Shown: positions 20,509 through 47,672 of the stretch, in pieces
Numbering within the stretch: position 1 is the first letter of the stretch
How the letters are laid out: each line of letters opens with the position of its first letter
Source of the DNA: Membranipora membranacea
Lineage: Eukaryota; Bryozoa; Gymnolaemata; Cheilostomatida; Membraniporidae
Length of the DNA stretch: 64,000 nt
Assembly: GCA_914767715.1 (NCBI GenBank)
Contig: OU612069.1
Location: 14,813,387 to 14,877,386 of the forward strand
Reading direction: 5' to 3'
Translations under genes and position numbers: made by a program
The notes under the pieces: generated by a model
Seen by the model: the letters and a program-made list of their open reading frames with translations, nothing else
Databases searched by the model: none
What the model was told of the DNA's origin: nothing

Positions 20509-20511
20509 ACA
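20509..20511. other. target-site duplication ACA, left copy
   Basis: The three bases ACA directly precede the CACTG end of the transposon. The same ACA follows its CAGTG end at 47639-47641. A 3-bp duplication is the hallmark of CACTA-type insertion. Confidence 0.8.
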
Positions 20512-20785
20512 CACTGCGTTTCATGCCTCTGAATTGTCTGACAATTCTGTACAATTCTAGAATTGTCGAGATTTGACCCATTTACAATGAACCAACCAGC
20601 TTTCCATTATCATTTAATTAAACCTGCCTGCTAAATAAATTACATTCACTATTGTGTTGTTATAGAATGAGCCTTCACAGTGTATGACAATATAATATAA
20701 TAGGCTTGATTTTACATGTAATGTGTTTCTATGTAATGACAAGACCACCTATACTATGTTCTAATAAAGATAACTCATGTAAACT
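20512..20785 (+). repeat. left terminal inverted repeat of the CACTA element
   Basis: Matches the reverse complement of 47361-47638. The match is near-perfect from 20512 to about 20603, continues with small indels through AATTACATTCACTATTGTG and GGCTTGATTTTACATGTAAT, and fades after TGTTCTAATAAAGATAA (about 20757-20773). Confidence 0.9.
20531..20567. promoter_or_regulatory. subterminal palindrome pair, probable transposase-binding sites
   Basis: Two adjoining palindromes, GAATTGTCTGACAATTC and ACAATTCTAGAATTGT, start 19 bp inside the left end. An identical pair lies at 47583-47619. Short subterminal motifs repeated near both ends are bound by TnpA-type proteins in plant CACTA elements; the role here is inferred. 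Confidence 0.55.
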
Positions 20786-22237
20786 TCACCCTCACAAACA
20801 AAACACTTAACACTCAGCGAGAACCTACAATAATTTAGATAGAAACATTGAACTTGCCTGTGGCAGGGTTGCCAACTGCAACCATAGCAAAACTGACAAA
20901 TTTACTTTAAAATGGGCTAAGCACTAGGGCTGCAGTATTCTCTTTTCTGACTTGTATTCCCAATACAAGTTAGAGACGGTAAGCTCAACTTGATTTAAAT
21001 AAGTCATTAAAAGTCTTCCAGGATCAGGGTACAGTTAAATTTTCAAGTTACTTGTCATGTACTGAGGTTAATTAATGAAAGGTCTAAGAATGAATACTGA
21101 CATTATACAGAGTGACAGTGTATTAGATACCAAACATAGTCAGAATTCATACTGCAAGACTGTTCATTTTTGTTATTGTAACGATTTATTGCTGCATTTT
21201 ATTCCACCGAGCTGCTTCCTTCAAATATAGAACAATAACTCACAGCTGACCATATATGTCCTAAAAACAGAATATCCATCTTATTGCGCTCCAATGATAG
21301 ATTCAGCTCCTTGCTGGCACACACAGACAGGTCTTCCTTATTCATAGTACGAGTTTGGTCAGCCAAAGATAAAGCTCCCGGACTGTAATAAATCCGTAAT
21401 CCATATTCATCATAGGTGCGTTTCTAAACTGCTACACCGCTGACTGTCTATCATAACATGTACCGGTAGCATCGTGTCCTGAAAATGAGACAAAATACAT
21501 GTTCTTAATAAATAGCTGTCTGTTTGGAGAAATCAAATCAATAGAACATAACCTGATGTGATGTGACCCACCAAGTTGACATATCTGCATAAATATTAAA
21601 AATCAGTTTGCTGTTAAAATGATTCAACTTACCCTTTGGAATGCCTGAACGGAAAGTCAACAATGCCAAATGAGGGAAACTAGAATTCACTTTCAGCTGG
21701 CAGAATAGTCATGTGACTATATTGTGCCTTCCTCAGTCATATCTGCTCTGATCATTTGAAGATAGAGCGTACCATCAGGAATTGAACGAGTGCTTGCGTT
21801 CAAGGGAACGCTTTCACCCAAGTACTCACTTGCACATGCTAATTGTCCATTGAATGAGTGATTTTCCAGGTATTTATCACAAAACCTAATAGTAAGACAA
21901 TGAACGCCTATTTACTATTGAGAACAAAATTCTATAGGCACAGTTTTCGGTTGTGGATGCCCAGCAACATCATTTTGCTTTTGACTATCAACTGTTTTTA
22001 ATAAAAAATCACCAATAAGCTCAAAGAATTGTCTTCTGTTTTTGAAGGAGGGGGCAACTCTTGTGCTATCATGATCTAAGCGGGGAGTTCGCGACAAAAT
22101 TACTAGTCTAAGTCGGCATTCTCAGGCATCAAGTTGAAGATATTTATTGTAGAATAGATGATACCTGCACAAAGCTCTTTGATTATACATAGTCAGACTA
22201 AGCTAAATAAAAAATTAACAGCAACATAAACAAAACA
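20786..22237. other. non-coding left arm of the element
   Basis: About 1.45 kb between the left inverted repeat and the end of gene B. No exon is supported. A TTTATT at 22143-22148 reads AATAAA on the minus strand, 90-95 bases past the gene B stop, and could be its polyadenylation signal. Confidence 0.5.
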
Positions 22238-25200
22238 TTAAATATCAGGCTTCACAACACAGTTGTTGTTCCAGATCTTGAGAGAAGGTACTCTTTTCGA
22301 AAGTTTCTCTTGCTTGAGGCACATGACACCTCGTCTTCTGTCGAGCTGAAAGAGAACAAACCGATATGAATAATAGGTACATGTTCAAGAGTGGGAGGTG
22401 GCCCAGTTGGTTAGAGCGCCTTTCCTTCAGCATGCAGGTTCAAATCCCAACGCAGTCCATCAACTACGAGTTTCGGGCGTTCATCATGGTTTTCATTCTC
22501 CACTCTCTGGGTATGAACATTCACACTGTTATATGAGTTGAACTCTTATCCAACAACACTATGACTGCCGAAAATCTTATACGGTAGAGGTAGCTCTTAT
22601 TAGAAAAATTTTCAATTTTGTTGTCTACATATATATCAGTTAGTAGAGAGTATACCCTGAATATTGTGAAACTAAGCAGCAGAAATATCAACCATTTACC
22701 TCTTTGATGTGTCTTGCTGCATTATCTGATACAAATGTTAGCCTGACCACTTCTGTTTCATCCTCCGAGCTCATAAGCTCATACACCAACGGAAAAAGTT
22801 CACCCTCTTCTGGCAGTTGTGCCCTTTTTCGACCTTCAAGCTTCTATAAAGTAGCATTTATAATTTGTTTCAGAAATCTTGTTTTGGAGTCAAATGCATT
22901 AGGTATATGTATCATTTTCTTGGGAATACCTGGAGGTATTGTCATCAATTTATTGAATAGAAATTCCCAATTCATCCCTGTATACAAACGTTGCCAACCA
23001 ACCCATATATTCTTATATTTTTAAGTGCTGCAAAACAAACAAGAAACCCAATGGGTCAGCAGCAATGCTTCTAGTGTACACTGATGTTTTGTTAATCTTC
23101 CAGCCTCAATGATACAATGATAATATATCAAATTTGGGAGACCCCTTGTCTTACCAGATGTTTCTTTTTATTAACTCTCTCCCTCGAAATCTCTCTTTCC
23201 GACTTGACCCTACAGCTCTGTTGGATCCTTCTGTAGGACATCTTCGAGATGGTCAAGCTGTCAGCTTTCGAGTAGCCTCTTGCCGTCATGGCATCAGTGA
23301 AGAGAAGTCCTACTCTGGTATTATTCTCTGACTGGAAGCTGGAAAGAGAGGCTCTCAATAATCAAACAGAACCAAAGAACCACAAAATAAATTGAGTATT
23401 TATGTAGAACAAAGTTAACTTACTCAAGACAGAATAAAATATCTTTGCTTATGAGCATGGTAAGGAGTTATTTTATCTTTCTCACTTGACCGCACCAGCT
23501 TATTTCAATTCAAAGAATTAAATCATTCAATTATTGACAACATTCCGGATAAACGTTGCCCTTATCGCACTTAGAAAATAAAACGGACAGGCCACTTTCG
23601 ATTTCTACTGCCATAGAAAAGCTCATTAGAGCCAGGGATAAGGCATTCAAAAAGAGATGCAAGTTCTGGAAAGTTTTGCATGCTTTGGTACAACGTAGTA
23701 TCAGAGGCAGTAAAAGGGCATTAATAAGAAATAAACTGAATGAAAACCAGAAAACTATAGAGTGGTGTTCAAAATTAAAATCAGTGATAGATCCTAAGGA
23801 AACAAACCGTGCAGACAGGCTTTCTACAACAGAAGTCAGTGTAATGAGAACCTCTTTATTCTGTGGTAAACTAAATCATCTGTTCGAATACTGGAGTATG
23901 ACATACATTCAGAGCCTCTAAGTCTTGGTGAAACTAAACATCTCATGAACAAGTTGGATGTTGGGAAGTCAACATCATCTGAAGACTTTCCAACATGTGT
24001 CTCAGTGGAAGGTAAAGAAGATGGGTTGCTTGCCTCCTAATGATATATTAAATTGGATGCTGTTTGCATCGGAATTTCCAAATAAAGGGAAGAGAATGCA
24101 AAGCCGACAAATCCCTAAGGTTGCTTGCCCGTCCAATTACAAAGGCTATCGGCCAGTGTCAATATTGTTTCACCTGGGAAAGCTTTCTGAGGAGGTAATA
24201 ATAAACAATATGAGATCCAAATTCGCAGAAGTAATAGAGCCATCACAGCTTGCTTGCCAGCCCACTCTGATCACGTGAGAATGAGAATCTCTGATCGATA
24301 GAGAGTGAACTAATTCTCTTAGCATGAGTACCATCACAAGGAAGTTGGTGTGACGACCCAAGTTAATTTTACTTATTAGGAGCGGGTACATGTTAGGTAC
24401 CTGTACTAAATTGACTCTAACGATCGGAGATACACATGATAATAGTATAGTCATGAAGACAGTTTGTTACCAGCCGCACACTGGGACAGTCGACGCCTTG
24501 ATCAAACTGCATGATGATTCCACATCAGAGCTTGACAACTCAAATGTAAAGTACATTCAAAATGCCACCTTGGGCTTTATTGAGGCATTCGATCGACCGC
24601 AACCTGCTGTGCCCATCAAGAAATTGGAAGGATACAAGTTCAAACCCTCTTATCATCTCACTTATATCTTACTTTTCGGCAGGGGGGAAGTCTGGGGGCT
24701 CGGACTTGGTAAAGAGAAGTCACGGTACATTAGCACCAAGGTTGGCGCTCCTCAGGTACCAAACAGGACCAATTCTATGGCTCTTGTATTCCAACAACCT
24801 GTCTGCGGATGGCTTTAACCACATGAAATATGTGACGGTACAACGTTTTAAACCTCTAGTGTTAACCTCAGCCACACGTCAGCGGCCTCAGTATTAACGA
24901 CACAACCACGGGCCGCTTATTATAACATGCAGCTGAATTCTGAAAAGCCTGAGGTCATGAACACCAAACTTAGCTATAGGTTAAAGTATGAACAATATGT
25001 AGTGATTGATAATCGCTCAGTGTCCCCTAATGCCTACACAAAATTCCTTGGAGTTTTGAAAAAAAAGCTATCACTAAACAAACGTGTAGATCTTTAGTTA
25101 CAAAGTGTAGCTCTATACTTTTTCCCAATGAAGTTACTTAAGACTATTGGTTTAGACTAGCAGGGATAATCGATGTTTTATTTTACTATCATCAGATCAA

Positions 25201-28200
25201 TACTGGGCTATGCCATTCCAGCTAGAAAAAATCCAAAGATCTGCCTGGTCTTCATTTTTGACATGTTCTATGCTCATTTCTTAAGATCGTTGCTAACGAG
25301 GCACACCCTCATTTTATAGATTAATTTTTGACAATTCTACCCGAATAACTTCTCTAGCAAATGTATTTTCAGACCCAAGCTATGTCGTACTGAAAAAAAG
25401 GACGTAAGAGCTTTTTCATGAATTACCATGACAACAGATTGATATAGAAGGAACAACCTTATAGTTGCTTTTTTTAAAACTTTTTCACCACACATGTCAC
25501 ACCACCGCATTGCATTCAAAACCACCGTCTTTGATGATGACAGAATGAAATAAACCCAATCCAAATCCAACATTTTGGGAAAACAACCTCATACATTGAG
25601 ACAATGCAATGGAAAGATGGGGTATTGAAACAAAATCAGTATTCATGAATTGCCCTGGGTGTTGCAACCATCAACTTCATGAGGTTTATATGTGAACACT
25701 TTCAAGAGTTGATTTTGGTGCTGAAACTTCTTTTTGCTACCCACAGAGGCTTGGTATGTAGAGACAATATACAAGTATCAAAGTAAATATCAAATATAAT
25801 ATAAGTACATACCTCTCGTTGCCATCAAACTCTTCGTGGAGGACCCCATACACTTTCCTTCCAATAGAGAAATCCTCTTTTGTTAGCTTTCTTGCGTTGT
25901 TGTTTGTTGATACTGATGTTATAATCTTGGCTGAAATAAAAACACCGGTTTTTCAATCTAGAAGCAGCTAGGGCAGCTCTTCTTTCATGTTGTTTGTAGG
26001 TAAGAGAAGTGAGGTTAAAGGTACGATGGCCAATGAACTAAACTGTTATGTTCATTGCTTAAACCTACATTGTGGTGACTGAAGCTAAGGCAGGTACAAT
26101 AGTTTAACCTATTTATGTCCGTAGTGCAACCAACAGTGAACTGTGGTATGCTGTGGTGTGGTGTGGTGCGGTGCGGTGCGGTGCGGGGTGGAGTGGTACA
26201 GTACGGTGTGGTATAGTATATGAACGCTGAACCTACCTAGTCCGTTGATCTTTGCTTGACAATCAATATGGTCTGGGTATGCTGGTCTGGAGGTGTCCCC
26301 AAAACTACCTATTGACGCTACAATGTAACATTATATTATGAATTATAGTACGATAATGATAATATAGGGAAAACGAGTAATACTATCACACCTGGTTTAA
26401 AACTATTATAAATCTTAATGATACAATGTGTCTGTTATACACGAGGTCTCAATATGGTACTGTCAGGCAGGGCATCCGACCAAAGTAGCTCCTATGGCAC
26501 ATCAGTACAAAGGCTGTTGACCCTGAGAGAAAAATCTCATTTAAGGGGTTTCTAACATGGTATCATGACTATTAACAATTGAAAGTCTTAGGAGCAATTC
26601 AAAATAATTATGGTTTGGACCCTCAAACGACGAGATGTTTGCAGCAATATCCTTAGTTCTTGAGTTGTTGAATGGACAGAACATTAAAATCACAACATAA
26701 GATGCGTTTATAGGGTAAGGGAAAGAGATATATCAGCTAGTTTCTAGGTTCTCTAGCAACCAAACCTCTAAGTGGCGCTATTACAACAATACTCACAGAT
26801 ATCTGTGCAAGACAGGTTATCACTCGACGATTTGCGCTGAGAAGACAAGCTATAACCACTGGTACTGCTATGCGGAGTGGAAACTAGAAAAAATATTCAT
26901 CATGGAGAATAAATCAATAGTAGTGGACATCAATGACAGAGCCTTAACATTTTCTGGTATAAAGGATGCAGTTAATATCTGTGAAATCGAGATAGGGGTG
27001 GTTCATTACCCGTAGGTCAATGGCTCCAGAGGATGATCAGACCACACAAATGTCCCATCCTGTGGTGAACAACAAATGTACATATATAGTTATATATATT
27101 CATAAATATATATATGTATCATTTATCAGACGTGAGAGACCGCTTCCTTCAAAACATACTTTATATTTTGAATTGTAGTTTCTTAGTTTGTAACTGTGTC
27201 ACAGAGCCCTACCCTTCGTTTGTAAAACGACACAAAACCAAATGTTTTGGAGAAAGCCCTTGTGTTTCAGTGATGCCATACTTTGCAATGGGGAAGAGCT
27301 GAAATAAATTTGGTTGGCTAGTTAGGCAGGTTATCGGATTGACAGCATTAAGTTTTTAACATATCATATTAAAACACATACCACAGAGGGGTTTAGGTGC
27401 TGCCGACTCTTGTATCTGCTGCTGGTTTACTGCTTTGCTGGTGGTATTATTGGTGTAGAGTGTGGAATCTGCGAAACAATAGGAAAACTTAATAAGTACT
27501 AGTTACTGTGTAGTGTGTACAAAAGTAACAGGCAACTCCCTTGGAATCATTTGTCATTGTAGACTAGATTTTGTTGATTATGGTGAAAGAGGGTTGAAAA
27601 TAGGTCCTAAATACAGAAACAATAGTAGTCATCAAGAATGCTATATCATAGCTTAAAATGCGAATAGACACTTTTAATTTACTCAACTGCAAAATTCATT
27701 TCAGGAGAAGGCCATAGAAAACATAGACCTGTTAAAACACCTAGACATGATTTATCACTATGTGTTCAATGTTTCATCGAATATTTAGCCAAAAAAGGCA
27801 ATAATGATCTTTTTTTAAATTATTCGAAAACTTATAACAGCAACCGAAACACACTGTTCCTGTTGGCGGCTACATATAGAATAGTTATCATTAACCATTT
27901 TACAAAGTTGATTCCTTTTTACATCATTAATTCAAAACCGACCCTACTCCCCGTATCCAGATCTACCAACCTGCTTTATTTCATAAGATCAGGAGAAATA
28001 ATGAAATATTTCTCCACTCGGAATAAATACTACAAACCACAAGTAATTAATTCTGCATGGTGTGAGCATAACCATACCTAAATAATTTGTGGAAAATTAA
28101 ATTAAACAAACTCCTCATTTTGGTGATAGAAACTTAGTTGGGCGGCATTATTTCATTCTTCTAGAAATCGATCCCTGCATCCTGGAATGGCACAGTCCCA

Positions 28201-29917
28201 ACTTCATCCATGTCCCACCCACTATCCTACTAAACCTGTGTACTTACCAGTTTCACAAGATCAAACCCATAAGAATAGCTAAGACAGTACATATATCATA
28301 AGTATCAGACAGCTTACCCCATTTGTAATCAGGCATGGTCTTTGGAAAACGTGCACAGTTGAAGGAGAGATCCCCAAAAGCAAGATTCATATTGTAAACG
28401 CTAATATAACTGCCTGTAATGTATCCTTGACGTATCATACTCTATCAATACAAAACCACTTACCACAGAGGAGTTTGGGTTCTGTTGACTTTGTTATCTG
28501 TTGGTTAAGTGGTTTGCTGGTAAGATTGGTTTTCTTGGTGTGGGGTGTGGATTCTGAAAAACAATATGGAAACTTAGTGAGTACTAGTTAGTGTGTAGTG
28601 TATGTACAAAGAAACAGGCAACTGCCTCGGAAATTTTGACCGCATGGGGAGAGTTGATAAAAGGCCTCAATTGTAGAACCAATTGAAGTCATCAAGGATG
28701 CTATATTGAAGCTTGATATGTGAGTACATGAATGTAGCTTTCTTTACGGCCTAAAATGATGATAATGCAAAACGCAGTTTATTCTGAAGTTATGATAATA
28801 TTCTGTCCATGAGAAGGTTTTGCATGGGGAGATTCACAAAACTATACTGAAAACCATTTTTGCAAAATATTTTTAAGCCAAATCCTAACGTGGTGATACA
28901 AAAACTCGACTGGGCAGCATACATCCTGAATCGCCACTGTCCTAACTTGAATAATTTCACCCTACCTAAAACACCCTACCCTAACTCAATATTCCAGCAC
29001 AAACATGATCTTTTTCGGTATAACCTTAGGTTGAATTTGACACCAAAGTTTACCGCCTCGTATTCAGATCTAACCACGTTGCTATGGTCTGACTGAGCGT
29101 CCACAATAATACCTCACAGATTTGTACTAAGCTCAACTTCATCCTTGAATTCCCAACAATGGCCGGTTCTAGAAATCTTGAGACACCAGCCGCAAAAATT
29201 GCTCTAGATATGGTTGTAATTAAACTAAAATCAAAATGATGGTACCAATTTAAAGCTGGAACCTGAGCTATAACATGCAATAGATAACTCAAAATCCTTT
29301 TCCCATTGCAAATGCCGGGTTTTGATGTGCTGCATCACATATGTCCCATCGATATTGTAAAGCTTACCACATATAGAATTGGGAATGGCCTTCGGAATAC
29401 GGTTTACAGTTGAAAATGAGACCTTCCCTCTCTTTTTCGATTTTGCCTCGTTTTCTTTTGTGCCATACACCTCGTCAAACAACTTGTCTAGGTGGAACTC
29501 CTTAGCGCTCGTACTTGCCTTCTTGGATTTTAAAGGCCTGCAAATATCATAATACACAAAATGTCATGGAGACTACATGTTATAAGATTTACCCCTTGAC
29601 TTCTGACATAGATATGTAAGTTTCAAAGGAATATTTTACCACCAAGTTAACATGCTTGTTAAAATCGAGAATAACCTGTTATTGCTCCTTGCTAACATAC
29701 ATGTTGAAAAGTGAGAACAATCCAGTGTGTTGTGATGGAGACCAGAGGACTGGATCACTATTGATAAACACTATATTTGTACAATAATCAACAAAAGATT
29801 TTTCAACTCTATCAAAGTGATACACAAATAGTAGATGACTTACGCTACGCCAGGATTATTTCTTTCCTCCTCAATAATTTCAGCCGCTGAGAAGAGTTTT
29901 CGTGATCGTGTTGACAT
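22238..29917 (-). CDS. unknown 412-aa protein of the CACTA element (gene B, possible TnpA analogue)
   Basis: Eleven exons join in frame from ATG to TAA: 29917-29844, 29537-29368, 28553-28464, 28413-28318, 27468-27382, 26883-26797, 26317-26237, 25930-25813, 23338-23155, 22843-22700 and 22345-22238, all GT-AG. The N-terminus (MSTRSRKLFSAAEIIEEERN) is followed by a lysine-rich region with a likely nuclear signal (KSKKRGK). Next comes a serine/threonine-rich middle in which related small phase-1 exons recur (ESTPHT, DSTLYT and VSTPHS starts; RIPKAIPNSICG versus RFPKTMPDYKWG ends). The basic C-terminal part includes KLTKEDFSIGRKVYGVLH, SYRRIQQSCRVKSERE and LDRRRGVMCL. No known domain is recognised. 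It lies 552 bp downstream of the transposase stop on the same strand. Its position in the element and its basic tail suggest a DNA-binding accessory protein, which is an inference. Confidence 0.75.
22389..22530 (+). repeat. tRNA-derived SINE in the last intron of gene B
   Basis: A-box-like TGGCCCAGTTGG (22399-22410) and B-box GGTTCAAATCCC (22437-22448) are followed by GCAGTCCATCAACTACG. The head belongs to the same family as the SINE in L2 intron 1. The right boundary is approximate. Confidence 0.65.
23556..25262 (+). mobile_element. degenerate non-LTR retrotransposon (LINE) reverse-transcriptase relic
   Basis: Plus-strand fragments in changing frames follow the order of a LINE reverse transcriptase. 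They run from a basic linker (23590-23790), to CPSNYKGYRPVSILFHLGKL (24126 onward), the catalytic-region relic GFIEAFDRP (about 24573), a remnant of the GxPQGTxLGPILW motif (GPILWLLYSNNLS, about 24767-24806), a KTEVM-like segment (24940s), a FLGV motif (about 25040) and FTIIRSILGYA (about 25185). Many stops and frameshifts are present and neither end is intact. It lies in the large intron of gene B (25812-23339), opposite to that gene. Confidence 0.75.
26148..26215 (+). repeat. (GGTGT/GGTGC)n simple repeat
   Basis: Pentanucleotide-like tandem GGTGTGGTGCGGTGCGGTGC with flanking variants, in an intron of gene B just before the 26317-26237 exon. It is the most GC-rich stretch in the region. Confidence 0.85.
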
Positions 29918-30468
29918 GGCTGCTATACTCAAGATAATGTTACTCGCAATGAATGATGATGCTAAGCAAAACAACCCATGTCGATGCGGAAAATCGGCGA
30001 ATAGAAACGTCTGATACCAGCTTAGAATCCACAAAGTGCATTATCAATTAATTGCCTGTAGATAGTTATCAGATAACGATGTTTTAGCTGTCAAATGAAT
30101 TGGGTATGGAAGAAACAATCACCTCTACAGACACCATACACAATGAGGACAAGAGATTTAGTGATGAGAATACTGCACAACCAAATTTCAATTATGGTTT
30201 GCAAATTAAGAGTACAGGGTAGGGGGTGTCAGCAGCGATATGAGATTGAGATTAACAACAAGGGATCTTCCATATCTATTATTCTCAATCATTTATTATC
30301 AATGACAATAGGTGATGTAAGAGTGTCTTAGAAGTGACAAAAAGAGTACATTGTTTTATGAGTAACTCAACCAGTAAGCTTTTCTATCAAAACAAAGCAT
30401 AAGGTTGAATATTATAAAAACAAAATATTAGTTAGCCATGCATAGATGGCTCATTATTGATGCACAAT

Positions 30469-33400
30469 TCAATATGCATATCTACTTGGCCTCTTTTCAG
30501 TTGAATACTGGCTTACACCCTGTATTTTCCTGCTGCTGATTGTCAACTGACATTGGATCAGATAGGGGGAAAAGGCTCGAGGACATATTCTCTTGAACTG
30601 CCAGGTCTTAATAAGCCCCTCAGCTTCCTCCCTCAGTAGGGTATGCAGCTCATGCCCAACGATCACCATAAAAGCGTCATTAACTTTCACTGTCTGAGTT
30701 ATCAAGATGGCTTCAGTTTTTAACCAAATTGCATTTCCTCTTCTGATTTCTTCTCCGAATACCCACATAGCTTTCACCCCATCTATCTGGAACACCGCTG
30801 GAATTTCTTTCTGAAAATACATTTATAAACATCTTAATATATTTGTACATTGCCATTCAAGCTCATACTCACACTCATACAAAACTGAATGTTTTAGATT
30901 ATAGCAGCATAAATGGAACACCCTATTTATGTAACCTTTATATGGAAATTTCGGATCATAAGCTGGTGTGTGCATCTTTTGCTTACAAAAGGCATGCCTA
31001 GGATTTTAACATTTTCTACCACCAATTTTCTACTCATATGCCACCAATTTTCATGATCATAAAAGAAACCATCGTGACATAGTATTATTTAGGCCTATTA
31101 AATCAAAAACTGACAATGAATTTGCCAGTTAAACTTTCATTGCCTTATTAAGCTCACATTCAATTTTCTGTTATTTCCACTCATCAAACCGTTTAATGGT
31201 GGCTTATCAAAGCAATAGAAGTTCTTTAGAAATTATGTCACACATGTGTAGCGGGAATACCAATAAAATGTGGACATCTGCTAAGAGTTTCATCAGAATT
31301 TACACCAATGGTCCAGATCAAAAAACTAGACGGATAGTGAGCTGCTCTTCTGTAGCATCCAAATGTACTGACAGTGTTTAATTTAGCTATGCATCGAGAT
31401 AGCAGCGTCGTGTTTGTCCGTCAGTCATTTAGCAGGCAGAAAATTTGATCTGCTTGCATATCCACGAGATTTGTCCCTCTGACCCTGCAGTGAACAACCA
31501 TTCCATCCACCCAATGCTTCTCTTGCCATTCAAAAATAGACATGGTTCGTCAGTGCACTCATGCAATTACCATCAGTCAATAATTTTATTGACAGTCAAT
31601 CAAAAACTCCTTTCTATCTGGTTACCCAACTAAGCTGACATTCGGATACCTCTGAGATATAATTATAAATGTATAAATGTTATTATGAATGTATGTATGT
31701 AAGAAGAGTAAATAATGGTACGGGAGAGAATTACCCAAATAAATTAATCAAAATAAAAAGAGTGTGAATTATATATAAGACCAACCTGCCCTCTGCCAGC
31801 ATATAAACCTTCATTGGATTTTAAATTCCGCCCATTCAATATTCACTTAACAAAAATATCCCTAAATTTATTTCCACATCAAATTTTAAGGTGTTTGCAA
31901 AGTTCTAAATGAAAACATATATTAAGGATTTTTAAAAGTTTTTATTACCTGATTGATAATTTTACCAGTGTTACTATTCTTAGCCAGAGCGCTAAATTTA
32001 AATCGGGGAATATTTTCATCCTGTAGGGTATTAGGGATATGGGTAGGTGTGAATTGCAAGTTATGAGTACCATCAGTTGGACTCAAATGGCTCTCTGTGG
32101 ATTCTGTTCTACACATTAGGGAGTTACAGACAGAGATCAATTGCTTCAGGGTTTCCAACCTTGGGAAACTTGAATCAAACGGAAATGAGCAACATGTTGC
32201 AGACTCTAGAGGTACATAGGTACAAAATGATTTGATGCACAGTTTGTTAATTATCGCTCCACCATGTCCAAGGGACCAGTAATACCGATATCACAGGTAA
32301 TAAGTTGTATAAAAGATCCAATGTTCTGAAATGCCATACACTTTACAAGGTTCAATGCATCCTGCTTGTGTTTTACCTACTGTCTCTCGACTTGTGATGA
32401 CTGCTATGATGTTTTTAAAGTTCACAGTACTAAAATTCCATGGATGACCAGATGGCAAAATACCTTCAAATCAAACCCTACCCAAAAACCATTGGTGTTT
32501 TTTTCTATTTTTTACATGTCTGACAGCTAGATTGATCAGATGCAATCAATTGAATAAAATTCTTGGCAAATCCTTCAATTTTTCATATTCTATGTACCAT
32601 ATTTCATAAAAATGCAATGTGCTACAGTGAACAAGTGGATAGCACAATGTTGTTCCGGAACGAGAAATGCACTGATTTAGGGAGGACGCTGAACCTGTAT
32701 CAAACAGCCAATAGTTTCCAGTCTAGAGTATTTATGAACAGTTTAAGGTTTTAACTCTCAAAATGATTCGGGCACCCCGACCAATCATTGACCGATAGAC
32801 CAGCGGGTTGAAGGAAACAGGGAGACAGATTAGCATGTTCAGATTTTGCAATACCGATTTATACAAAAATGTTCAAAGCATGCTATCAATATTATATACA
32901 CACATATCATACGAGACAGGACGTGAACGATACTAATCACAATAAAAAACTTTTGTGTAAACTTACCTCTCTCATATAATTGTATATAGCTCGCTTTTCT
33001 TCTCTCGTAAGGGTTATGTCTCTTTCAATATGGAGGGGCAGTCCTTCAGATGACAGAAGAGGGGCCTCAACTCTAAGCTGGAAGCGAATAGCTGGTGGCA
33101 CTGTGTGGAACTGTGAAGGTGGCTTTGGAATAGCAGTTTGCTTTAGCTGGTCAGTCTGCCTCATAACCTAAAACCAAGTGCCAACCGATGGGTCATAACA
33201 CAGCATGATGATATTGCTTATGATAATCAGCAACAAACATTGATGTTAAACAATTATGAAAAATGCAGTTTTTATATTTCGCTTAATCTGGGATGAATAC
33301 GACTCTACTAACATAACTCAAAGTCGGTCTTTGATAACAATAAACTTTCAACACGTTCTCTCAGAAGCTAACTGACCTGAGGTGCAATCTGGTGGTTATT

Positions 33401-36400
33401 AACCTTGATGTTCTTTAATGTCCTATTGTACCTTTCATAAGGGAAGCACCTGTAAATAGAACGTCATAGGCTAATCAGAGATTAATCCTGTAATATTGAA
33501 AACGTCGGCGATGACTTATTCATGAATTCACCCCTGAACCTCCAACCTCCACATCACCACATTGGAAACACTATGGTTTTGTAGGTAGGCAATAGGAATG
33601 AGGCCAGGCCTCGAACCCACCCAAATTTTATAGGTCTTGCAAAGTATTACCACCCTTTATTCCTTCACGGCATTATTGTATGGTGGGAGGCAACAACCAA
33701 AACCAACCATATTATTGATAAAATATACGGATCAGCCCTAATGTCTGCAACAAGAGCATTTTGAACTGCCCCACATTAGCTTTAGAGATCATCCTTAACA
33801 TCCTTCCTCTTGAGATTAAGGCCTCGCAGTTTGCCATTAACAGCTGGTACAGTCTGATCAGAAACAAGCATAATATAATAATACCCCATGCAAATCACGG
33901 AATCAACCAGTAAATCCACTCACCCATCTGATTTCATTTCACAAGTCAAAAACTGATCTTTCCAAGTGATAAAGTCAGATTTTATACCCAGCAAAAGAGC
34001 AGTGGCTTGAGGATGAACTCGCCACTAACAAATATGAAATATGCTCCTACACTGATGTGTCATCCAATGAATTGGGGTTGGAGTCAAAGCTCTCAAGCAC
34101 TCAGGTTTAGCCCGAGTTACTCGGGTTTTTGGGTTCAACTCAGGGGATTTTAGAATTTTGCCTCATATTCATCAAAGTTTGGGAATTCCTCTCGGTGTGG
34201 CCTAGTTGTATGATTATAAAGAAACAATTTTGTATTGTGATATACGAAATACATTAAACAGGATGAATTTTACAGTGATTCTATATTAATGATCTGCTAA
34301 CAACTCTAAAAAACCAGTATCATTCATGTGTAGAGGCCTAAAATTATTGCTCGCTAGGCTTTGGTGACCGGACCCATTGAGGAGGCTAACATAGCTCCAA
34401 AACTCCAAGCTGTTTGTGCACAGGGTGTTACACGGCTTTGAAATGCCATCTGCAACACGGTATCAGCAAAACTCAGGTTTTCGGTCCTCCCAGATTGAGA
34501 GCCCTGGTTGGAGTGGGCATATTCTCCAAGGTAAAAGATGAAGACGCTTATCTCCAAAACGCAAACCAAAATGTTTCCATTCCACTATCTGATACATCAA
34601 TTGTTTTTTTCAATCTGAAATGCTTGCAATAGCCACTGCTGCTGTTATGCTTTTGAAACTTGATTGTAAAAAGCTATTATATCTTATAGCATATCAGCAC
34701 TACAACCCTTCAAGATCAAGCAATAAGAACCAAGACCAAACTAGACTGTATGAAAAGGATAAGCCAACTGGCCTTAACTAACCATCTAGGCCTCATATGG
34801 GTGCCTGGACACACAGGTGTACATGGTAGTCATCTCCATTAGTCCCGATCATGTCCCTCTTATTCCTTAAAGTCCCATGAAAACCCAAACAAAGCAATGG
34901 ATGCAAAAACAGGTGCATTCAAAATGGCTCCAAACCCAAAAATGTAAAGACACTAAAATATTTTTGCTCACCCTAAATATGAAGAGCCTTTCAAAATGAC
35001 CAAATCTACGCAAACTACTTACCTGACACAATGAACACAATCACAGGCCGTGCACAGTTCAGGTCTCACCTGACTAAAATAAGATTAGCCCAAATACACA
35101 TCAAGGTTCCAGATCATGTTGACTTTTTTCGTCAGTCATGCAAGGTTGATAACCATCAGATGCAAGAGAAAACTTGCTTTCCGGGGCCTTTGAGTACCTC
35201 TTCCGGTACACTGATAATACAATATTTTTGTGTTATCCCCTACTGAAGACAAGACAAGATCCCTCCCAACCACTTAGGGTTTTAGCATTCGCTGTGTTGG
35301 TACAGATAACGATTCATTAACAGGCCGGTGGGCTAGAGCGGAATAACAATAAACATACCAGTTACTCGGTGCTGGACCGAACCGCCTTATTCCATTGGAG
35401 AGATGGAGCATCATATGCGAGTTGCAGGTTAATGCAGCAGGCCCAAACACTCGGCTCATGGCCTCTAGAAATGTCTCGCACAAACCATCTAGCCGCTCCA
35501 GTTCAGCTTCAGATACGCATCTAAAGTAAAAATGACTTAGGTTTCAATGTGTCATGTCCCTTGTTTACAACAAATGAAGACATTGGTATCAAAATTGAGA
35601 AAAAGGTTCATCATAATATTGGTATGAAATAATCTCAGCCAAACTTCAAGTAATGCAGCTGAAATTGTTTGGTATTTTTGCGTGAGAATGAGGAGCTTTC
35701 GTGATAAGACACACCTGACAGAGGACAACATACCTAGACATGGCTATCTTCATGATTATTTTCAGCTGATAAACCAGGTTAAGCTTGCGGAGGCTGACTG
35801 TCCCATGCAATGTGTGAGAGTAGCTTTCATAGAGAGTTTTGAAGTCCTTAGACGTGAGACTTGAGCCGGACACCAGTCTGCCGATCAGCGGTTGGGGTGC
35901 CTGCGCACTAGTGAGGTTAACACCTAGCACCTGCAGATTCGGATCACACAATGAGAACAGTCTTTTTGCGACACCTAAGAGTGAGGAATACCCAGCATAA
36001 GTACATGAAATATGTTTACAAGCAATCACTGATGGTGTTAGTGTGAACATAATATCAGGATTTCAACTGTTTTCATTCAAACCCAAGCTAGGCCGCAGAC
36101 ATGCAGTAAGATCTATACAGCTTGTGAAAACTTGGTAGAAACATAACTCATATCATGGCGCAAAATTAGTAATTATCAAACTAGACAAAGGTTACCTGAA
36201 CAGAGATTATGCATTGTATCCACTGCATGGTCATTTACTGGCTGGAAGTACGGCAGCATTAACATAGCTGTATCTCTGAAAAGAGAATTATAACACAACA
36301 TACATAAAAAAATGGGACATTGGAAAAAATTAATATTCAGAGCGGGTGAACATAATCTTAAGAGGCCAGTCGTAAATAAAGTCATGTTGTTTGACTGTCT

Positions 36401-39400
36401 ATCTAAGAATCTGATGCTGAAACTGTTGGTACGGCAATCCCTGGGTAATGTTGAATATGTGAAATGTAATTGGCATTTGGTAGGTTTTTATACATCTTGT
36501 AGTATGATAGTCCTGAAATGAGCTATATTTGAATAATACTAAATACATAGGTACATACTTGTAACCTGTTGTCTTAGAAATATTTTCTTGCTCAGTCTTT
36601 GTGTGGGCAGCTGATATCTCAGCGGCAACTCTGATGTGGTTCCGATGTGATCTGTCGATGCCGACTTGTTTCTTATCCACGAGAAGGTTGGCATCACAGA
36701 GTGAACAACCTGCAATTAGTGACAGTTAGTAAGCATTTGGCTGAAAATATTATTGACCTAAGCAAAACCAAAATGAAGGTAGAAATTTCTTTATACAACA
36801 TTGAAATGCAATTTATGAATTTCTGTGACCTACACCTGTTTTAAAGCACTAATTCATTGAACAATTGCAAGACTGTAAGAAATGTTAATGCTCCTTCCTT
36901 GGTGATAAAGCCAAGACAAAAGACATCTTACTTTTTCACTTTACGCAAACTGAATCTGACTGAGGAGAACATTAAAATTGATAAATTCACATAAATATGC
37001 ATCAGTTTTACACCTTGTAAAAGTACAGTTATAGTTCGCTAGGTAATAACCTTGTGCCGCACTGTGCCCCATAAGTCCCATTGCAGCTCTTGTGGCAGGC
37101 AAATCAGACACACAGTTGAAGAGACGAACCCTGAAACTCTCTTCACCAATGGTAAACTCTTGAGCTCGGATGAGATCTTGCACCTTTGAGTATAAAAAAA
37201 TCGGAAACGGTTATTGTGACTGGTTGGCTAGTTGGTTCATGGATATGAACCTGTTGTGATGAAGAATCCTTTAAATCATGTATGTCTATTTAGCGACTTT
37301 TGGGGCAAATTATTGATTGCGGTACAGATAATGGGGAATTCCCAATTCTGCAAGAGAGCGAAAATTGGACTTTTTTTATATCAGATAGCTGGAATCTGAG
37401 ATCAGAATAATGTAGGCAATGTACACCTTGTCGGATTTTGAGAAAATTAGTCTCAACTTTTTCTTTGGTAAGGGTGCAGTTGGTTAAACAAAATGCCTCT
37501 TTCGGCCAGTGGCCAAATTTGCCGAAGTTGTCTTGTCTTATGAGGGAGACTGAGATAGATGATAGAATAAATCAGTCGGAATACAGGTATATATGGCACC
37601 CATCATATTCAGAGTCCCCTGACCAATCTGATTAAGCGTATATTGGTAGTAAATTGTGTTTTAAGGTTTGGATATATATCTATTTTGAGTGTATTCTTTC
37701 TAATTATTGATTAATTTTTGCATAAAAAAAATGAGAATTTTAATCCGCTAATGCACCGAATTCAGGACAGGATGACTCGTCAGCGATGTTTCTTCGGTTT
37801 AAGTGTTCTCTGAATGGACCATGGCCTGTGATAGTATTTACAGCATAATACAGAAGTTGCATCAGGGGCTTTTATATTTGACCCTTGATATGTCTAGTAG
37901 TGGTTTTAGTTTTTGTACGGTTTTTTGAATGTAACCACTTTTCTTCAAAGGCGCTGTAAGCTAGTTCTTTGAAGTTTTCTTTTATGACTTTTATAGGGGG
38001 ATCAGGATCGAGGGTATCAAGCACACCTTCGAGGTAGGCAAGCTCAACACACCGACATTTGCCGAGGTTGAGCACGGCTGTTTTAAATTGTGCAAGTGGT
38101 GAGATTTGCGAACCAATTCTAGGCCTAGCTATCGCTCAATACCTTGGTTGACAGAATAAAGAGGTGGGCAAATTTATCTCAATGATTTCCAGTGTCCATT
38201 GCTCAATAGGTTAGTAACTTCAAACATAGTGTATTTATTGTTTAAGTGCAAATACACCTATAGAGTTTGATCAATGAGCTTTTGTATCGGAACAATGTGT
38301 AATATTCCAGTTGCACTAAAGAGCAATTACTCAAAATTACTAGCGAAAATTACTACATAGCAAAGGCTGTTGTAAACCTCTGGTATTGCATTTTAGAAGA
38401 CATTGCTAGACAACAAGACGGAAATGGAAATGTGTTTTGCTTCAGCGTAATGATCAATGAATGATGTGTTCATGAATTGTGAACTTTTACTAGCATCCAA
38501 TAATTCAAGCCTAATCTGTAGGTGGCCAGAGAGCATCTTAATTATAAAACCCCTGAAGAATGATGTGTGCAGCTTTTTTGACTGTCAGTATTGGATTGAA
38601 TTCAAGTTATCACAGTCCTAAGTACCTACCATAACTGAGAGAATCTCGTTGAGTTGTCCTTTTGCAGGCTCAGAAGGTCCTGGTATACAACCTGTGTGAA
38701 TGCAAAAAGCTGTCAGGATATGGAAAATACTCACGCAGACAATGTCACATGAACAGTTAGTTTTAGTGAAGAACAGGATCACTCTGCTTACGCATCAATC
38801 CTCATGTGGAAGCATTCCGTCATCATGTACACTGGGTGCATATTCAATTTAAAAAAATCATCCCTACGATGTGATTAAGTCTTACTAAAGGTTTGCCTTT
38901 TCCTCTACCTGTCACACCTGCACATCTTTGCGTAACAGGAGTTTACAGGATTGAGAGTTTACTTGGAAAACCTGACAAGAAGTGAATCTTACCAATTATG
39001 AGAATGTTTTCTTCTTCATATCTCAGGTGTCTCGGCAAATTCAGAATCGACATGTAGATAGCACCAAAACTGTAAACACCTCGATTAAAAGGGTTAAACC
39101 AATCGATGTTGAATTGTAGTTGGAGGTTAGTATGTCCTGGCTCATTTAACCATGCCATCTGCTCAGTCCACTTCTCTCCATCATACACATCTGTGTAATG
39201 ACATCCTGAGTCACGGGTTCTCCATAAATCACACCTGAAATACAATTTAAGTTTTAGCTATTGTTTTGAATAAAAAAAACTATAATTGGTTTTACATGGA
39301 GTAGGGCCTTATAGTTTAGTTCTTTTGTAAAGCCAAATTCTGAGTAGTCTGATATCATTGAACTGTAAAGACTGCAACACCAACAACAGTTCATATGTAA

Positions 39401-42071
39401 ACTCAAGGCTTGATATCCTCTGCCTTTTGATTTACCTCAGCAATATTTGCTCTCCAATAGAAATCCTAAAAATATTTTTGTAGGCGCACTGCAGCAAAAT
39501 TAAATAAGTTATCAGGGAGGTGAGTGAGGTGAAGAAAGAGACTTTCTGTAGTTTTTTTATAGTCTGACATTCTAAAATCACACCAGTAGTGTGGCGTGCT
39601 AATATTTCACTATCCTTATAGATACCCCAGAGAAGAAAATAAGAAAGACTCTATGAGGTAGTCTGAGTTGGTGATACTGCCAGTTTGAATCTTAAGAAAC
39701 ATCTAAATGAATATGGTGATCTGGAATCAAGTCAACATTTTACCTGCATGCCTAGTTTGGAATATAGGCCAGAGTTGCTATACTTATTTTGTCAGGGCCT
39801 CCCTGTTAAACAGTGTTTAAGCTTTTTAGCTTGCTGTTTCCTGTCTTCAATTTGGAGCATGGGGGCCAACCTTTTTTTTTAAAATAGGCCAAATTGTGCA
39901 CAGAAATTTTACTCAAGACTGCATCATCATTTTCAGACAGATTTATCCGTAATAAAAATTCAGCTGTACAGAAATGCTGGTTTATCTAATATTCTGAAGT
40001 TTTGTGAAAACATGTTACCTCATGGCTTCTGAGATTTGATTTTGTACATGTCTGTATCCCTGTGTTTTATGTATATGGCAAAGAGCAGGGTGGGTGAGGG
40101 AGAGGAGCTGTTGCAAGGGAGAAATTTTAGCAAATGAATATGAAATGCGAGGCAATGTGAAACATTTTAGCCAAATGCAGGAGCACATGTACCATGAGAA
40201 CATTTTGATACAAAGCTACCTTTCTTAGTCAATTGACAGGTTCGAAAAAAATAATGCACAATTAATTCAACTTTTTGACAGACATAAGACCCCAAAAAGG
40301 CCGCACTGGCACAAAGGTCATAGTTTGCCGACAGCTGATTGATTTAATACAGAGTGCCACCAATCCTACACCAAAGAACAGTGATCCTGAAAGCAGAGGC
40401 AGTGCCTACAATATTTCTAAACCACTCCATGGTTTATTCTACCAGCTACAGCTTATTAGAAAGGAACTAGTTATCGTGACAGCAGATTGTCGGACAAGAA
40501 TGTTCTTGTGATTTGTTTGTGTATTTGCCAAAACTTCATGGTTTAAAAAAGAAGCAGTTGAAAAACAGTGATTTATATAAAAACTCTGTTCCTATGCTGC
40601 CTCTTGTAAATTAAACACAACAGTAGGTAGTTGTATTCGACTTTCTATTAATCAACATTCAACTTATCACAACAAACTGCTGAATTTTGTACAATTTTCA
40701 AAATCAAATAAAAAACCAAATTTGCCAAATCAAGCTCTTTTGTACTGATCGAGTATCTTCACATTGCAACTCAACAGCTGTTCAAAATTATTCAGACCTA
40801 ACATCATACTGGCAAAGGCGAACTTTGACTATATCAGTAAAGCTACCATGAACCGAAACGCCTCTGTCCAATCTGAAGCTAATGCATGCTTAGTACATTC
40901 TTGTCCAATACATTGAGGTACATTATGTCCAGGATGTTTGCCCAGTGAGCCCATCAACTCAACATACATACTGATCAGACAGGTCACTAAACTAGAGTTT
41001 CCATGTATCTCCGATGTTTAGAAAATAAGATACTCACAGTTCATTGAAATTTGGTATCCTTGATATGATGTCTGTCAGGGCTCGAGATACTGGCTTGTAG
41101 GCAAACAGTTCAACTCTTGTAGGCTTTGGTGAGTTACACACACTTCCGTCATATCGGATATTCTTACATATCTCTGGAAAGCTGTTAGGATAAACCTTTT
41201 TGCACATCGTGCAAATTGGCATTGTCATAAATCCATCAGATATGTCTACAAACAGGAAAAATAATATTAGCAATTAAGTCATAAACAAGGTATAGCCAAC
41301 ACAATAAATTGTCTAAAACGAGCTATATCAGGGGAGGAGTAAAAAAAAGTAAGATTCGTGCAGATGGAACAAACATGCCGCAATGTGATAGACACAAAAA
41401 GTAAGGGTTTATGACAGTCATTGCATATGCACGTAAATTAATCTGACTTAGTACATTACGGTACAATTTTTTTTTTTTACTAAAACTTGTCTTCAAAAGG
41501 CCCTTCTAACTCATCAGAAAAGCAAGAAAACCCAACTCATGCTCAGTTGCAATTTCATTATCCTAAAGCAATCCGTTTGTCTGCAAGTGTGCGTCTACAG
41601 TATTGACAAAAGCTCACCAGCTGCATTCTTTAGGCTTCTAGATGAGACAGGCACACGAGTTTTAGTGACTTCGGTAAAGAGGCGACTTGTTTCTTGTGTT
41701 GCGCGCTCCGACATATTGTGCTGCGAAGAGAGTCGAAGAATCTTTCGAGCCATCTCAGACTGCTCCAACTATAAATCACAAAAGTGAATTGTTGTTAATG
41801 ACCTGTATAAGGTATGAGGGACCTTTCATTTTTCTGCCAAACAGGGTGCAATGATTGGACCTAATTAGGTCCCATGGTTCAATTAACATGAGTTAAACCT
41901 TTCCAATCTTTACCATTTCGTATAGGTAGTCAAATTTCTTTAACAAGTGGATGATACTCTTTAGTTTGGAATTTGTCTCAACAAACCTCATTGTGTTCCT
42001 GGTTAGCCATTTTTGGTTGCTAATGATTTGTTCTTTTCTAAATTTGCAGTACCTCCGCAAGTTTTCTATAT
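30469..42071 (-). CDS. CACTA (Tnp2/Transposase_21-type) transposase, 5' exon(s) not found (gene A)
   Basis: Fourteen exons join in one frame to a TGA at 30469: 42071-41914, 41768-41618, 41245-41038, 39234-38993, 38691-38630, 37183-37051, 36709-36559, 36275-36196, 35974-35734, 35520-35359, 33449-33377, 33167-32967, 32203-31949 and 30810-30469 (819 codons). In order they encode a coiled N-terminal region, a cysteine knuckle (CTMCKKVYP then two more C), CDLWRTRD, FNIDWFNPFNR with a candidate first catalytic D, IPGPSEP, DLPATRAAMGLMGHSAAQG joined to CSLCDANL, YFQPVNDHAVDTMHN with a candidate second D, and a DUF4218-like SHMMLHL...IRRFGPAPSNW joined to CFPYERYN with a candidate E. This order is that of CACTA transposases. 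It would cut and paste the element in the nucleus. The first exon must end in phase 1 upstream of 42071. The exon at 32203 uses the second AG of a CTAGAG acceptor. Introns hold a LINE relic. Confidence 0.88.
34440..34990 (+). mobile_element. LINE relic with RNase H-like end
   Basis: Plus-strand fragments across several frames resemble the C-terminal half of a LINE ORF2 with an RNase H domain: a DTSIVFF region near 34600, QAIRTKTKL near 34720, LALTNHLGLIWVPGHTGVHG near 34773-34830, and a KWLQTQKCKDTKIFL tail near 34923-34970. The WVPGHxGxxG motif is characteristic. Frameshifts and stops are present. It sits in the intron of gene A between 35358 and 33450. Confidence 0.65.
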
Positions 42072-45000: not shown

Positions 45001-47210
45001 TGCCCTTGGTTAAATTGGTGATTGAATTCAGTTAGATGGTTAGTAGGTGATGGCAGTAGAAGTGCAAACTGAACAGAGGGAAAGATATGACTGTCCTATC
45101 AATATCTAAGTAACGTTGTTCCATTGTGTGGTGGAACTTTTCATGAAGACAGGGGCCCGGCCGATAGAGACTTCACTAATTATTTCATTCTGTCTACAAA
45201 CACTGATTGTTGGGCATCAAAACATTTGGTCGTTTTGCGGTTGCGAACCGCCCTACACATTCTGATCCGTTTTCCTTTCAACATAATAAAAATTGACAAA
45301 CTAATTTTCATGTCCTGCTCTGGATTGTAGTTATGAGATTTACAAACGGCCAATCCTTGATCTTCCTGGGTACCAACTATGCAGCCTGTAGTTTGCCCAT
45401 ATCCAATAAAAGTTTGTGGTGGTTTATACTTAATTCGGGCAAAAATTAAAGGCCCGCAAGTTCCCAGGCGCCTATGCCATGAAGCCTCCCATCCGAACTG
45501 AAGCTTTGTTGAAAAACTAAAGTTAGGTGGATTATCTCCACTCTCTGTCATTCTTTTACCTTATTGTTAGCATTAATTTTTATCGCCACCATGAAATTGG
45601 ATGCATAATACAAACTTCTGGCAAGTTCCCTGGTTCTTGGTCAGTGAGACATTCCAAAACAAATGATGCAATGCTCTATAGTAATGGTAGGAGTATCGAA
45701 GCCTTTTTCTTGTCCGCATTTAGAGAGAACACAGATTATTAATTCGGTCTGACGGAGTTCTTCTTAGAGTGAAAATATTTGATTATAGAGTGTATAGCTG
45801 ACAATCGCTATTCTCTAAGATGGGATTAGTAGAAATAGCAACAATCATTCTTTTAGCATGCTTAATTACACAGATCTAAGAGCGATGGTAGGCAAACTTT
45901 CCTGTATCCTAGTATTGTCAATGATGCATAGAGCGTAACATATGGTGGGGAAACCTCTTTTATATATGATATAGCTTGCTGATGCAACCAACTGTCACAG
46001 CCAGGCCAGTGGTATGTAGGACAATTCAGGGGTAGACTCAGAGCGCTCAATATTACACATAACCGTGATGCATTGAAGAATCTAAATTTCAACCATACAT
46101 CCCGACACATTGTCTCCCAATGCAATCAAATATCTTCTTTAGTTCAAAGTTGCAAAGTTTACATACTAAAACTTTTATGGTTCAAATGCTTATGAAATAT
46201 ATTCATGATAATTAAAAATGAAACATGACACTCTGATGTCCACGCTGATGTCCAAGCTAATGTCATAAAAATATAGCCGGTAGACAAGTATATAGACAAT
46301 ATTGTCAACGGAAGGTTGGTGGATTTTTTTACGATTCAACTCCAGGTGGGTGTAACCTCATGTACCCATATAATGATGCGGCATAGTTTCCGTCCTACAA
46401 TAAGCCTATCACCTGAGTGAAAAGGTGTTAATCGTATGGGTTTCGATAATATGTAATGGTTTACCTGTCGCTATTTATTTGCAATACCTATCAATAACAA
46501 TTTTTTATCTTGATGGTGATACAACGCTGATCACAAATAAATCATCTTTTGCTCCCTAAAACAATCAAGCCGTTTAGGTGGCCTAACTTACCATTGTGAG
46601 AGAGTTGATGCTAATCACAAATCAATCTCTGGTCCCACCAATGAAGGTACCATTGATAACAAGCCTGGGAGTTGCACGCTCCTTCATTTTGTTTGCCAGA
46701 GATGGGAGAACTCCAAAAAGACACTCGCATATCACCCCTAAAAATTGACTTGACTTAATGGATCTCAAGACGATGATTATATTTTTTTTACATTGTTTTG
46801 ACAGAAAAGCTGACTATATACAGTACAATTCTCAAGCAATGATGCAAAGAGTGGCAGTAAAAAGAGTGATTAAGCTTATCACTCCCGAGATTAATAATTG
46901 ATGCAAACAACAATAATGCCAATGATACCATCCATATCCGCGCTGCTCCAGCTGATCATTTTCTTTATTTGAATTGATCATCAAGAAAGCGAGACTATAT
47001 GGTTGGGACAACACAGATTGACACTGTCTGCGATCAACTGTTCAAATAAATTTTGATTTCCATTACATGGTTGACAATACTTTTGTATTGAACTATATCA
47101 TTAACACACAATGATGACAATCTTATGGCAGGTATAAATGTAAGCAAGCCATGCCTGTTTATGCCATGCCATGCCTATATTAATTGTTGGATGAACCTCT
47201 TTTTTTTTAG
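42072..47210. other. right arm of the element; no gene resolved
   Basis: The missing first exon(s) of the transposase and its promoter should lie here. I could not find an ATG exon ending in phase 1 with confidence. One dispersed repeat copy (43770-44170) is present. A 123-codon minus-strand open frame at 45551-45180 has no recognisable motif and no matching splice phase. Confidence 0.5.
43770..44170 (+). repeat. dispersed repeat, copy 2 (copy 1 at 4141-4500)
   Basis: Shares GTGTAAATCCATGACA, CAGTCAGTGGAAAA, an AAAATCTCAACCGCA stretch, CATCTTAAATCGTAATCAGA and CATATTAGGTGTGTCCTGT with the copy at 4141, in the same order and orientation. One copy is inside the CACTA element and one outside, so this is a genome-wide family. 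Confidence 0.6.
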
Positions 47211-47321
47211 CAAATGTGACAATTTTGATAGCGGCAGGTGACAATCCTGACCATCGAGTTATCATAGTACTCTATGATCCAGACATGTGCAATGATATTA
47301 GAGGGAGGTTTTTGCTGAGTG
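47211..47321 (+). other. orphan plus-strand exon-like segment inside the right end of the transposon
   Basis: An acceptor preceded by an eight-base T run (TTTTTTTTAG) is followed by 111 open bases and a consensus donor GAGTG/GTAAGT. In the phase shared by all lectin introns it encodes NVTILIAAGDNPDHRVIIV, then LYDPDMCNDIRGRFLLSG. The segment faintly recalls the start of lectin exon 3 (NLTVTIA... then NLCGRIHG) and lies 352 bp before the L3 start codon on the same strand. No partner exon was found on either side. It may be a captured host exon, a relic of a gene carried by the element, or an exon that becomes spliced into L3 transcripts. Confidence 0.45.
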
Positions 47322-47360
47322 GTAAGTGTTTAGTTTTCTTTGGGAGGGTGAGATGTTGGT

Positions 47361-47638
47361 TTACAAAAATGGTTTATCTTTATCTTTATTAGAACATTCA
47401 AGTTGTCTAGGCATCTACAGAGAAACACATTACATGTAAAATCAAGCCTATTATATTACATTATCTGACACTGTGAAGGCTCATTCTATAACAACACAAT
47501 AGTGAATGTAATTTATTTAGCAGGCAGGGTTAATTAGACAATAATGGAAGCTGGTTGGTTCATTGTAAATGGGTCAAATCTCGACAATTCTAGAATTGTA
47601 CAGAATTGTCAGACAATTCAGGGGCATGAAACGCAGTG
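47361..47638 (-). repeat. right terminal inverted repeat of the CACTA element
   Basis: Reverse complement of 20512-20785. It contains the same palindrome pair (47583-47619) and ends in CAGTG at 47638, followed by ACA. Confidence 0.9.
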
Positions 47639-47641: not shown

Positions 47642-47672
47642 GTAATGTTGCAAAATTTCCATTAGATACAAA

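Follow-up and report, generated by a model that had tools for sequence, protein, structure and literature searches.

Among the published CACTA (EnSpm) transposons compared here, those from animals measure 4.5 to 9.2 kb (PMC1636069), examples from an alga and from soybean reach 16-20.5 kb (PMC6431247, PMC2613891), and cut-and-paste transposition is reported to become less efficient above about 6 kb of cargo (PMC6431247). The element considered here lies in a 64,000-nucleotide stretch of the genome of the bryozoan Membranipora membranacea (GenBank assembly GCA_914767715.1, contig OU612069.1, positions 14,813,387 to 14,877,386 of the forward strand; hereafter the window, numbered from its first letter), where it occupies positions 20512-47638, a span of 27,127 bp that opens with CACTG (20512-20516) and closes with CAGTG (47634-47638). 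An earlier note, made from the letters of the window, had called it giant, a fair description beside the sizes above, and no animal CACTA element longer than 20 kb was found in literature judged by titles and abstract openings, although one may still be in print. The same note had assigned the element to CACTA/EnSpm. We agree: because of its ends, the duplications at seven copies, the inverted repeats, the Pfam matches and the protein motifs, it almost certainly represents a family of CACTA/EnSpm cut-and-paste DNA transposons in which the entire 27-kb length is the mobile unit.

The termini and the ACA on both sides are found exactly where they had first been read, and the ends of the element are organised as follows.

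20509-20511, no strand: left copy of the target-site duplication, ACA, read in the sequence
20512-20823, plus strand: left terminal inverted repeat, starting CACTG, from arm alignments; inner part gapped and more diverged
20531-20566, no strand: four 7-bp motifs GAATTGT/ACAATTC, 9-10 bp apart, at 20531, 20541, 20551 and 20560; candidate protein-binding sites
47309-47638, minus strand: right terminal inverted repeat, finishing CAGTG, from arm alignments
47584-47619, no strand: four 7-bp motifs GAATTGT/ACAATTC, mirroring the left end, at 47584, 47593, 47603 and 47613; candidate protein-binding sites
47639-47641, no strand: right copy of the target-site duplication, ACA, read in the sequence

The two arms are 99% alike over 91 nt and 93% alike over another 134 nt. 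Inverted repeats of about 275 bp with one substitution in the outer 90 bp or so had been proposed; a gapped alignment of the arms (312 x 330) bears this out, with a single substitution in the outermost 89 columns and likeness reaching the edge of the 330 nt supplied. A pattern built on the 27-nt tip, with up to three mismatches allowed, occurs twice in the 64-kb window, at the two tips of the element, and never in 100 shuffles. Within the inverted repeat, GAATTGT or its complement stands at bases 20, 30, 40 and 49 from either tip, such that 8 of the 22 copies of this motif in the window sit in the two terminal 60-bp stretches. Their spacing, near one helical turn, suggests candidate binding sites on one face; at four per end they are fewer than in the plant CACTA elements as far as the available accounts go.

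The case for a mobile unit of this size is carried by further copies. As the earlier note had proposed, the host assembly (339,339,785 bases in 18 contigs) was searched for the same ends, with the left 291 bases as query, and at least 42 end matches were obtained (40 of 410 candidates scored). Sixteen of these make eight pairs by spacing and orientation, the window's own and seven that were fetched. Five of the eight copies are long, at 27,127 (window), 27,117, 27,246, 27,522 and 27,455 bp, and three (20,679, 20,372 and about 9.5 kb) are deletion forms without internal parts. The alignable parts of the other copies are 97.3-98.7% identical to the window copy, and the four other 27-kb copies span 26,914-27,127 of its 27,127 bases at 97.7-98.7%. 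The earlier note had named repeats occurring unpaired, without the internal genes, as evidence that would count against the element; among the fetched copies, five of the eight are paired at 27.1-27.5 kb with a conserved inside. CACTG and CAGTG mark the tips of seven of the eight copies, and the same number carry perfect 3-bp duplications (ACA in the window, CAA at C10:1.30M, TTT at C8:16.47M, TCA at C3:19.53M, AGT at both C5:5.79M and C10:7.32M, and CAG at C11:6.90M); the 9.5-kb copy is without its left tip. The 100-base flanks of the copies, judged by eye, differ from one another. Insertion with a 3-bp duplication is thus shown by seven copies. Because long copies stand within mostly different duplications, the whole 27 kb has moved as a unit, repeatedly and fairly recently, and its length predates the spread of these copies.

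Two side observations concern the make-up of the family. Ten further end-like matches reach only 76-79% identity over 229-246 query bases (e.g. C7:5024015, C6:1591772 and C4:8839192), and perhaps belong to a second, older subfamily with similar ends. Three stretches, of about 226, 135-142 and 157-158 bases and located at window positions 33544, 35088 and 43040, are common to the long C3 and C5 copies but absent from the window, C10 and C8 copies; the long copies perhaps fall into two subfamilies.

Two multi-exon genes on the minus strand had been predicted inside the element, and both are present and open in further copies. Their joined lengths of 1,239 and 2,459 bases were not reproduced, and our models give 1,719 nt in 11 exons and 975 nt in eight exons instead. 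The first, a Tnp2-type transposase gene (41753-32937), has ten GT-AG introns and one frame from ATG to stop that encodes 572 residues. Its core exons were located via Tnp2 motifs, and their borders were set by splice scores and phase.

41618-41753, minus strand: Tnp2 exon 1, ATG at 41753 (context GAGATGG)
41038-41245, minus strand: Tnp2 exon 2, short zinc-finger-like cysteine region
38993-39234, minus strand: Tnp2 exon 3, candidate catalytic D within the NIDWF motif; strongest homology
38630-38691, minus strand: Tnp2 exon 4
37051-37183, minus strand: Tnp2 exon 5, candidate catalytic D within the SDLPA motif
36559-36709, minus strand: Tnp2 exon 6, C(2)C motif
36196-36275, minus strand: Tnp2 exon 7, DTMHN motif
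35734-35974, minus strand: Tnp2 exon 8
35359-35520, minus strand: Tnp2 exon 9, H(3)H motif, DUF4218-like
33377-33449, minus strand: Tnp2 exon 10, candidate catalytic E within the YERYN motif
32937-33167, minus strand: Tnp2 exon 11, the last exon if read through to its stop; a strong donor after 32967 offers a spliced reading instead

The 572-residue model matches three Pfam families above their cut-offs: Transposase_21 (PF02992) at 4.9e-7 (29.6 bits against a cut-off of 28.6, a margin of 1.0), DUF1258 at 6.1e-10, and DUF4218 (PF13960) at 3.4e-6 (27.3 bits against 27, a margin of 0.3). Among 5,353 candidates, a protein search identified 17 relatives at E≤1e-3, the best at 9.4e-59 with 32% identity over 81%; both of the named proteins among the 25 found in protein searches are fungal, and a search of solved structures gave no match at E≤1. 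The Transposase_21 relatives P0009-P0016 share 29-34% identity with Tnp2 and have the same motifs in the same order, with PF02992 in all eight and PF06869 in five. Tnp2 agrees with eight relatives at 63 of the 88 columns that do not vary among them. NIDWF, SDLPA, GCSLC as C(2)C, HMMLH as H(3)H and YERYN are all kept, with GCSLC and HMMLH between SDLPA and YERYN. This order matches that given for the CMCT group (EnSpm, Mirage, Chapaev, Transib and others), in which C(2)C and H(3-4)H lie between the second D and the last E (PMC12730594), a motif common to several superfamilies; we read D, D and E as the candidate catalytic residues. The relatives are longer than Tnp2, at 624-845 residues, and several have N- and C-terminal regions not found in the element. 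A piece resembling the C-terminal motif (47037-47174, minus strand) scores 11.7 bits, against a largest value of 9.7 in 20 triplet shuffles; its position, 464 bases in from the right end, is upstream of the transposase gene and thus on the wrong side, and the likeness may be due to chance or mark a relic. A scan of 5.6 kb upstream of the Tnp2 ATG gave a best exon chain of 12.3, within the range of shuffles of the gene-2 region.

The second gene runs through eight exons from an ATG at 29917 to a stop at 22238 and would encode 324 residues.

29844-29917, minus strand: gene 2 exon 1, from the ATG at 29917 (context GCAGCCATGT)
29368-29537, minus strand: gene 2 exon 2
28464-28553, minus strand: gene 2 exon 3, phase 1-1, tandem duplicate of exon 4
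27382-27468, minus strand: gene 2 exon 4, phase 1-1, tandem duplicate of exon 3
25813-25930, minus strand: gene 2 exon 5
23155-23338, minus strand: gene 2 exon 6
22700-22843, minus strand: gene 2 exon 7, includes an SSEDE acidic stretch
22238-22345, minus strand: gene 2 exon 8, to the stop; AATAAA follows at 22148

Exons 3 and 4 fall, with matching flanks, in a duplication whose members (27366-27546 and 28448-28632) stand about 1,085 bp apart. An exon-chain search of the gene-2 region, with codon scores trained on ten transposase exons, reached 44.0; no chain in 40 shuffles exceeded 25.0, and the opposite strand gave 25.3. We infer that gene 2 is a putative TnpA-like partner gene. Two other candidates in this region were set aside. 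A hAT remnant at 29.8-30.0 kb (Dimer_Tnp_hAT, E 0.061 and, read across a frame change, 0.052) stayed below its cut-off of 21.4 bits, at 13.6 and 13.8, with no improvement from the second reading, and the stretch is retained as gene-2 exon 1; a candidate exon at 31 kb was without splice sites.

Comparison of the copies suggests that these genes have been maintained. The Tnp2 frame is intact in three of the long copies (window, C3 and C5) and that of gene 2 in four of the five (window, C10, C8 and C3), so that the window and C3 copies hold both genes open. The damage elsewhere comprises two incompletely matched Tnp2 exons in C10, an early Tnp2 stop in C8 and a frame change in gene 2 in C5, and the three short copies are without some exons. 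With each change counted once across four copies (C10 was excluded for its damaged exons), Tnp2 has 12 synonymous and 12 nonsynonymous changes, a nonsynonymous/synonymous ratio of 0.29 that only 5 of 1000 controls, pseudo-genes assembled from the alignment's non-coding stretches, were low enough to match. Gene 2, across five copies, has 9 synonymous and 11 nonsynonymous changes (and three codons with several changes), a ratio of 0.34 equalled or undercut by 28 of 1000 such controls. Furthermore, the Tnp2 exons vary less than the introns (30 of 1,719 positions versus 203 of 7,098). Selective constraint thus appears well supported for Tnp2 and moderately supported for gene 2; low variability between copies did not pick out further exons. 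The earlier suggestion that the element is possibly autonomous gains strength from two copies with both genes open and apparently constrained, and on this sequence basis the family is plausibly autonomous. By analogy with the rest of the family, the transposase would bind and cut the CACTG ends, the gene-2 protein would bind the GAATTGT repeats at both ends and assemble or regulate the complex, as TnpA does in En/Spm, and insertion at staggered cuts would leave the 3-bp duplication.

Several results weigh against this explanation. In Tnp2, 20 of the 88 invariant positions are changed and 5 are gapped, the N- and C-terminal regions of the longer relatives were not found (the best profile scores for them within the element were 5.8 and 11.7 bits), and several splice sites, such as those of exons 3, 5, 6 and 11, are weak in a simple matrix. 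Gene 2 is as variable in its exons (27 of 975 positions) as in its introns (189 of 6,705), its product matches no Pfam family, and none of 963 word-sharing candidates matched it at E≤10 in a search that depends on shared 5-residue words and similar length. The best automatic chain has four of the eight gene-2 exons exactly and the donor of two more, omits two and adds four; the gene-2 model is therefore approximate. TnpA-type partners of plant CACTA elements share little similarity between elements (PMC2613891), so an orphan partner is to be expected by precedent, though this is no proof.

One alternative is that this is a genuine CACTA family, recently amplified and now dead, in which no copy encodes an active transposase. 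At least one gene is damaged in three of the five long copies, the altered positions of Tnp2 and the failure to find the terminal regions of longer relatives point the same way, and DNA transposition is reported to lose efficiency once the cargo exceeds 6 kb, although artificial constructs as long as 100-200 kb have been moved (PMC6431247). The two copies with both frames open and the signs of constraint speak for a living family instead, as does the comparable size (560 residues) of the SmTRC1 protein (PMC1636069), and we regard extinction as a real but minority prospect.

A second alternative concerns the number of genes. The exons of Tnp2 and gene 2 lie on one strand and in order, and the last Tnp2 exon contains a strong donor after 32967 (7.7 bits), ignored by the terminal-exon reading, so the Tnp2 gene may continue further. 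A phase-compatible chain via 30810-30552 and 29961-29844 would then make the gene-2 exons the 3' part of the Tnp2 transcript, with TnpD-like and TnpA-like proteins produced by alternative splicing, for which En/Spm, SmTRC1 and soybean Tgmt* offer precedents. Against this, the ATG at 29917 has a good context, several AATAAA lie between the genes, and the splice sites of exon 30810-30552 score weakly, with 7 of its 259 positions variable between copies, an unremarkable level. We therefore keep two genes and consider a single one rather unlikely. The notion that the inverted repeats are independent small elements flanking 27 kb of host DNA by chance, towards which their inner parts hint by differing more than the outer, though not significantly (p 0.052), is effectively refuted by the recurrence of the 27-kb arrangement elsewhere with new 3-bp duplications.

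What fills the element is mostly not coding. Exons account for 2,694 of 27,127 bases (9.9%), introns for about 13.8 kb (51%) and the remainder for about 10.6 kb. The earlier claim that introns make up most of the length therefore holds only just, and its companion, that they contain other transposons, is not supported: among 30 chosen Pfam submissions from inside the element (9, 2, 9 and 10, some repeated, rather than every open frame) only the two Tnp2 drafts passed a cut-off. Inverted pairs of at least 22 nt within 6 kb, sought inside the element, amounted to one of 23 nt at 83%. Reverse-transcriptase-like pieces on the plus strand at 23.5-25.1 kb were noticed by eye only and, being without Pfam support, were rejected.

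The element has inserted amidst a tandem family of lectin-like genes, copies of which flank it on both sides.

16985-18805, 47646-49650, 52333-53747, 55383-57823 and 63745-63979: tandem lectin-like gene family; the first exon is short and possibly secreted, and an F5/8-type domain is present

Their joined exons match F5_F8_type_C_2 at 1.2e-4, under the Pfam cut-off. One such gene, read away from the transposase, has its probable start codon near 47673, about 35 bp beyond the right end of the element. These neighbours, together with the spliced genes, would by themselves point to an animal as the probable host. An empty site was sought by paralogy within the window and rejected, as the joined flanks match the paralogous exons 17102-17322 and 63745-63979 only downstream of the junction. 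Elsewhere in the window, open pieces at 6429-10051 include a stretch (8911-9090, plus strand) that resembles the late part of another Tnp2-like transposase (P0007 at 8956-9045, E 0.015); five open pieces around this region gave no Pfam match above the cut-off, and it is possibly a second, decayed CACTA-type gene. A diverged array of direct repeats with units of roughly 85-205 bp occupies 13759-16783, with 2.4 copies of a 205-bp unit at 15225-15713, and two direct repeats spaced by about 907 bp, with 93% and 87% likeness, lie at 3650-4742.

As a kind of element this one is ordinary; what is unusual is the length kept in five copies, the two open and apparently constrained genes, and the recent spread. 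A bolder reading, which we put forward as tentative and on balance doubtful, is that no larger CACTA transposon has so far been described from an animal and that this one is still autonomous: 27 kb, 90% non-coding, its full length kept through repeated transposition, with an orphan TnpA-like protein derived partly by exon duplication and co-evolved with helically spaced GAATTGT sites, and with a right end that may double as a promoter for the neighbouring lectin-like gene, 35 bp off. A family that has moved repeatedly as a 27-kb, mostly non-coding unit makes the supposed limit on cargo size testable, would provide an animal case of a transposase whose TnpA-like partner evolves beyond recognition, and presents an insertion immediately before a lectin-like gene, any effect of which could be measured.

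Among described systems, SmTRC1 of Schistosoma mansoni is likewise an animal relative of CACTA, with a Transposase_21 protein of 560 residues and transcripts spliced to encode distinct proteins, but it measures 4.5 kb, has 54-bp repeats starting CCC, and is bordered by 2-bp direct repeats in 7 of 14 copies (PMC1636069). The 20.5-kb soybean element Tgmt* resembles ours in being oversized and putatively autonomous, with a 3-bp duplication, a Tnp2, repeated motifs near its ends and a second product little similar to those of other CACTA elements; it differs in being a plant element with imperfect 13-bp CACTA repeats, asymmetric subterminal repeats and one alternatively spliced gene of 14.6 kb (PMC2613891). 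The En/Spm families of Chondrus crispus, at 16-20 kb, are also enlarged CACTA elements (cited in PMC6431247), but belong to a red alga and carry four to five open reading frames, whereas the bryozoan element is, by our models, about 90% non-coding.

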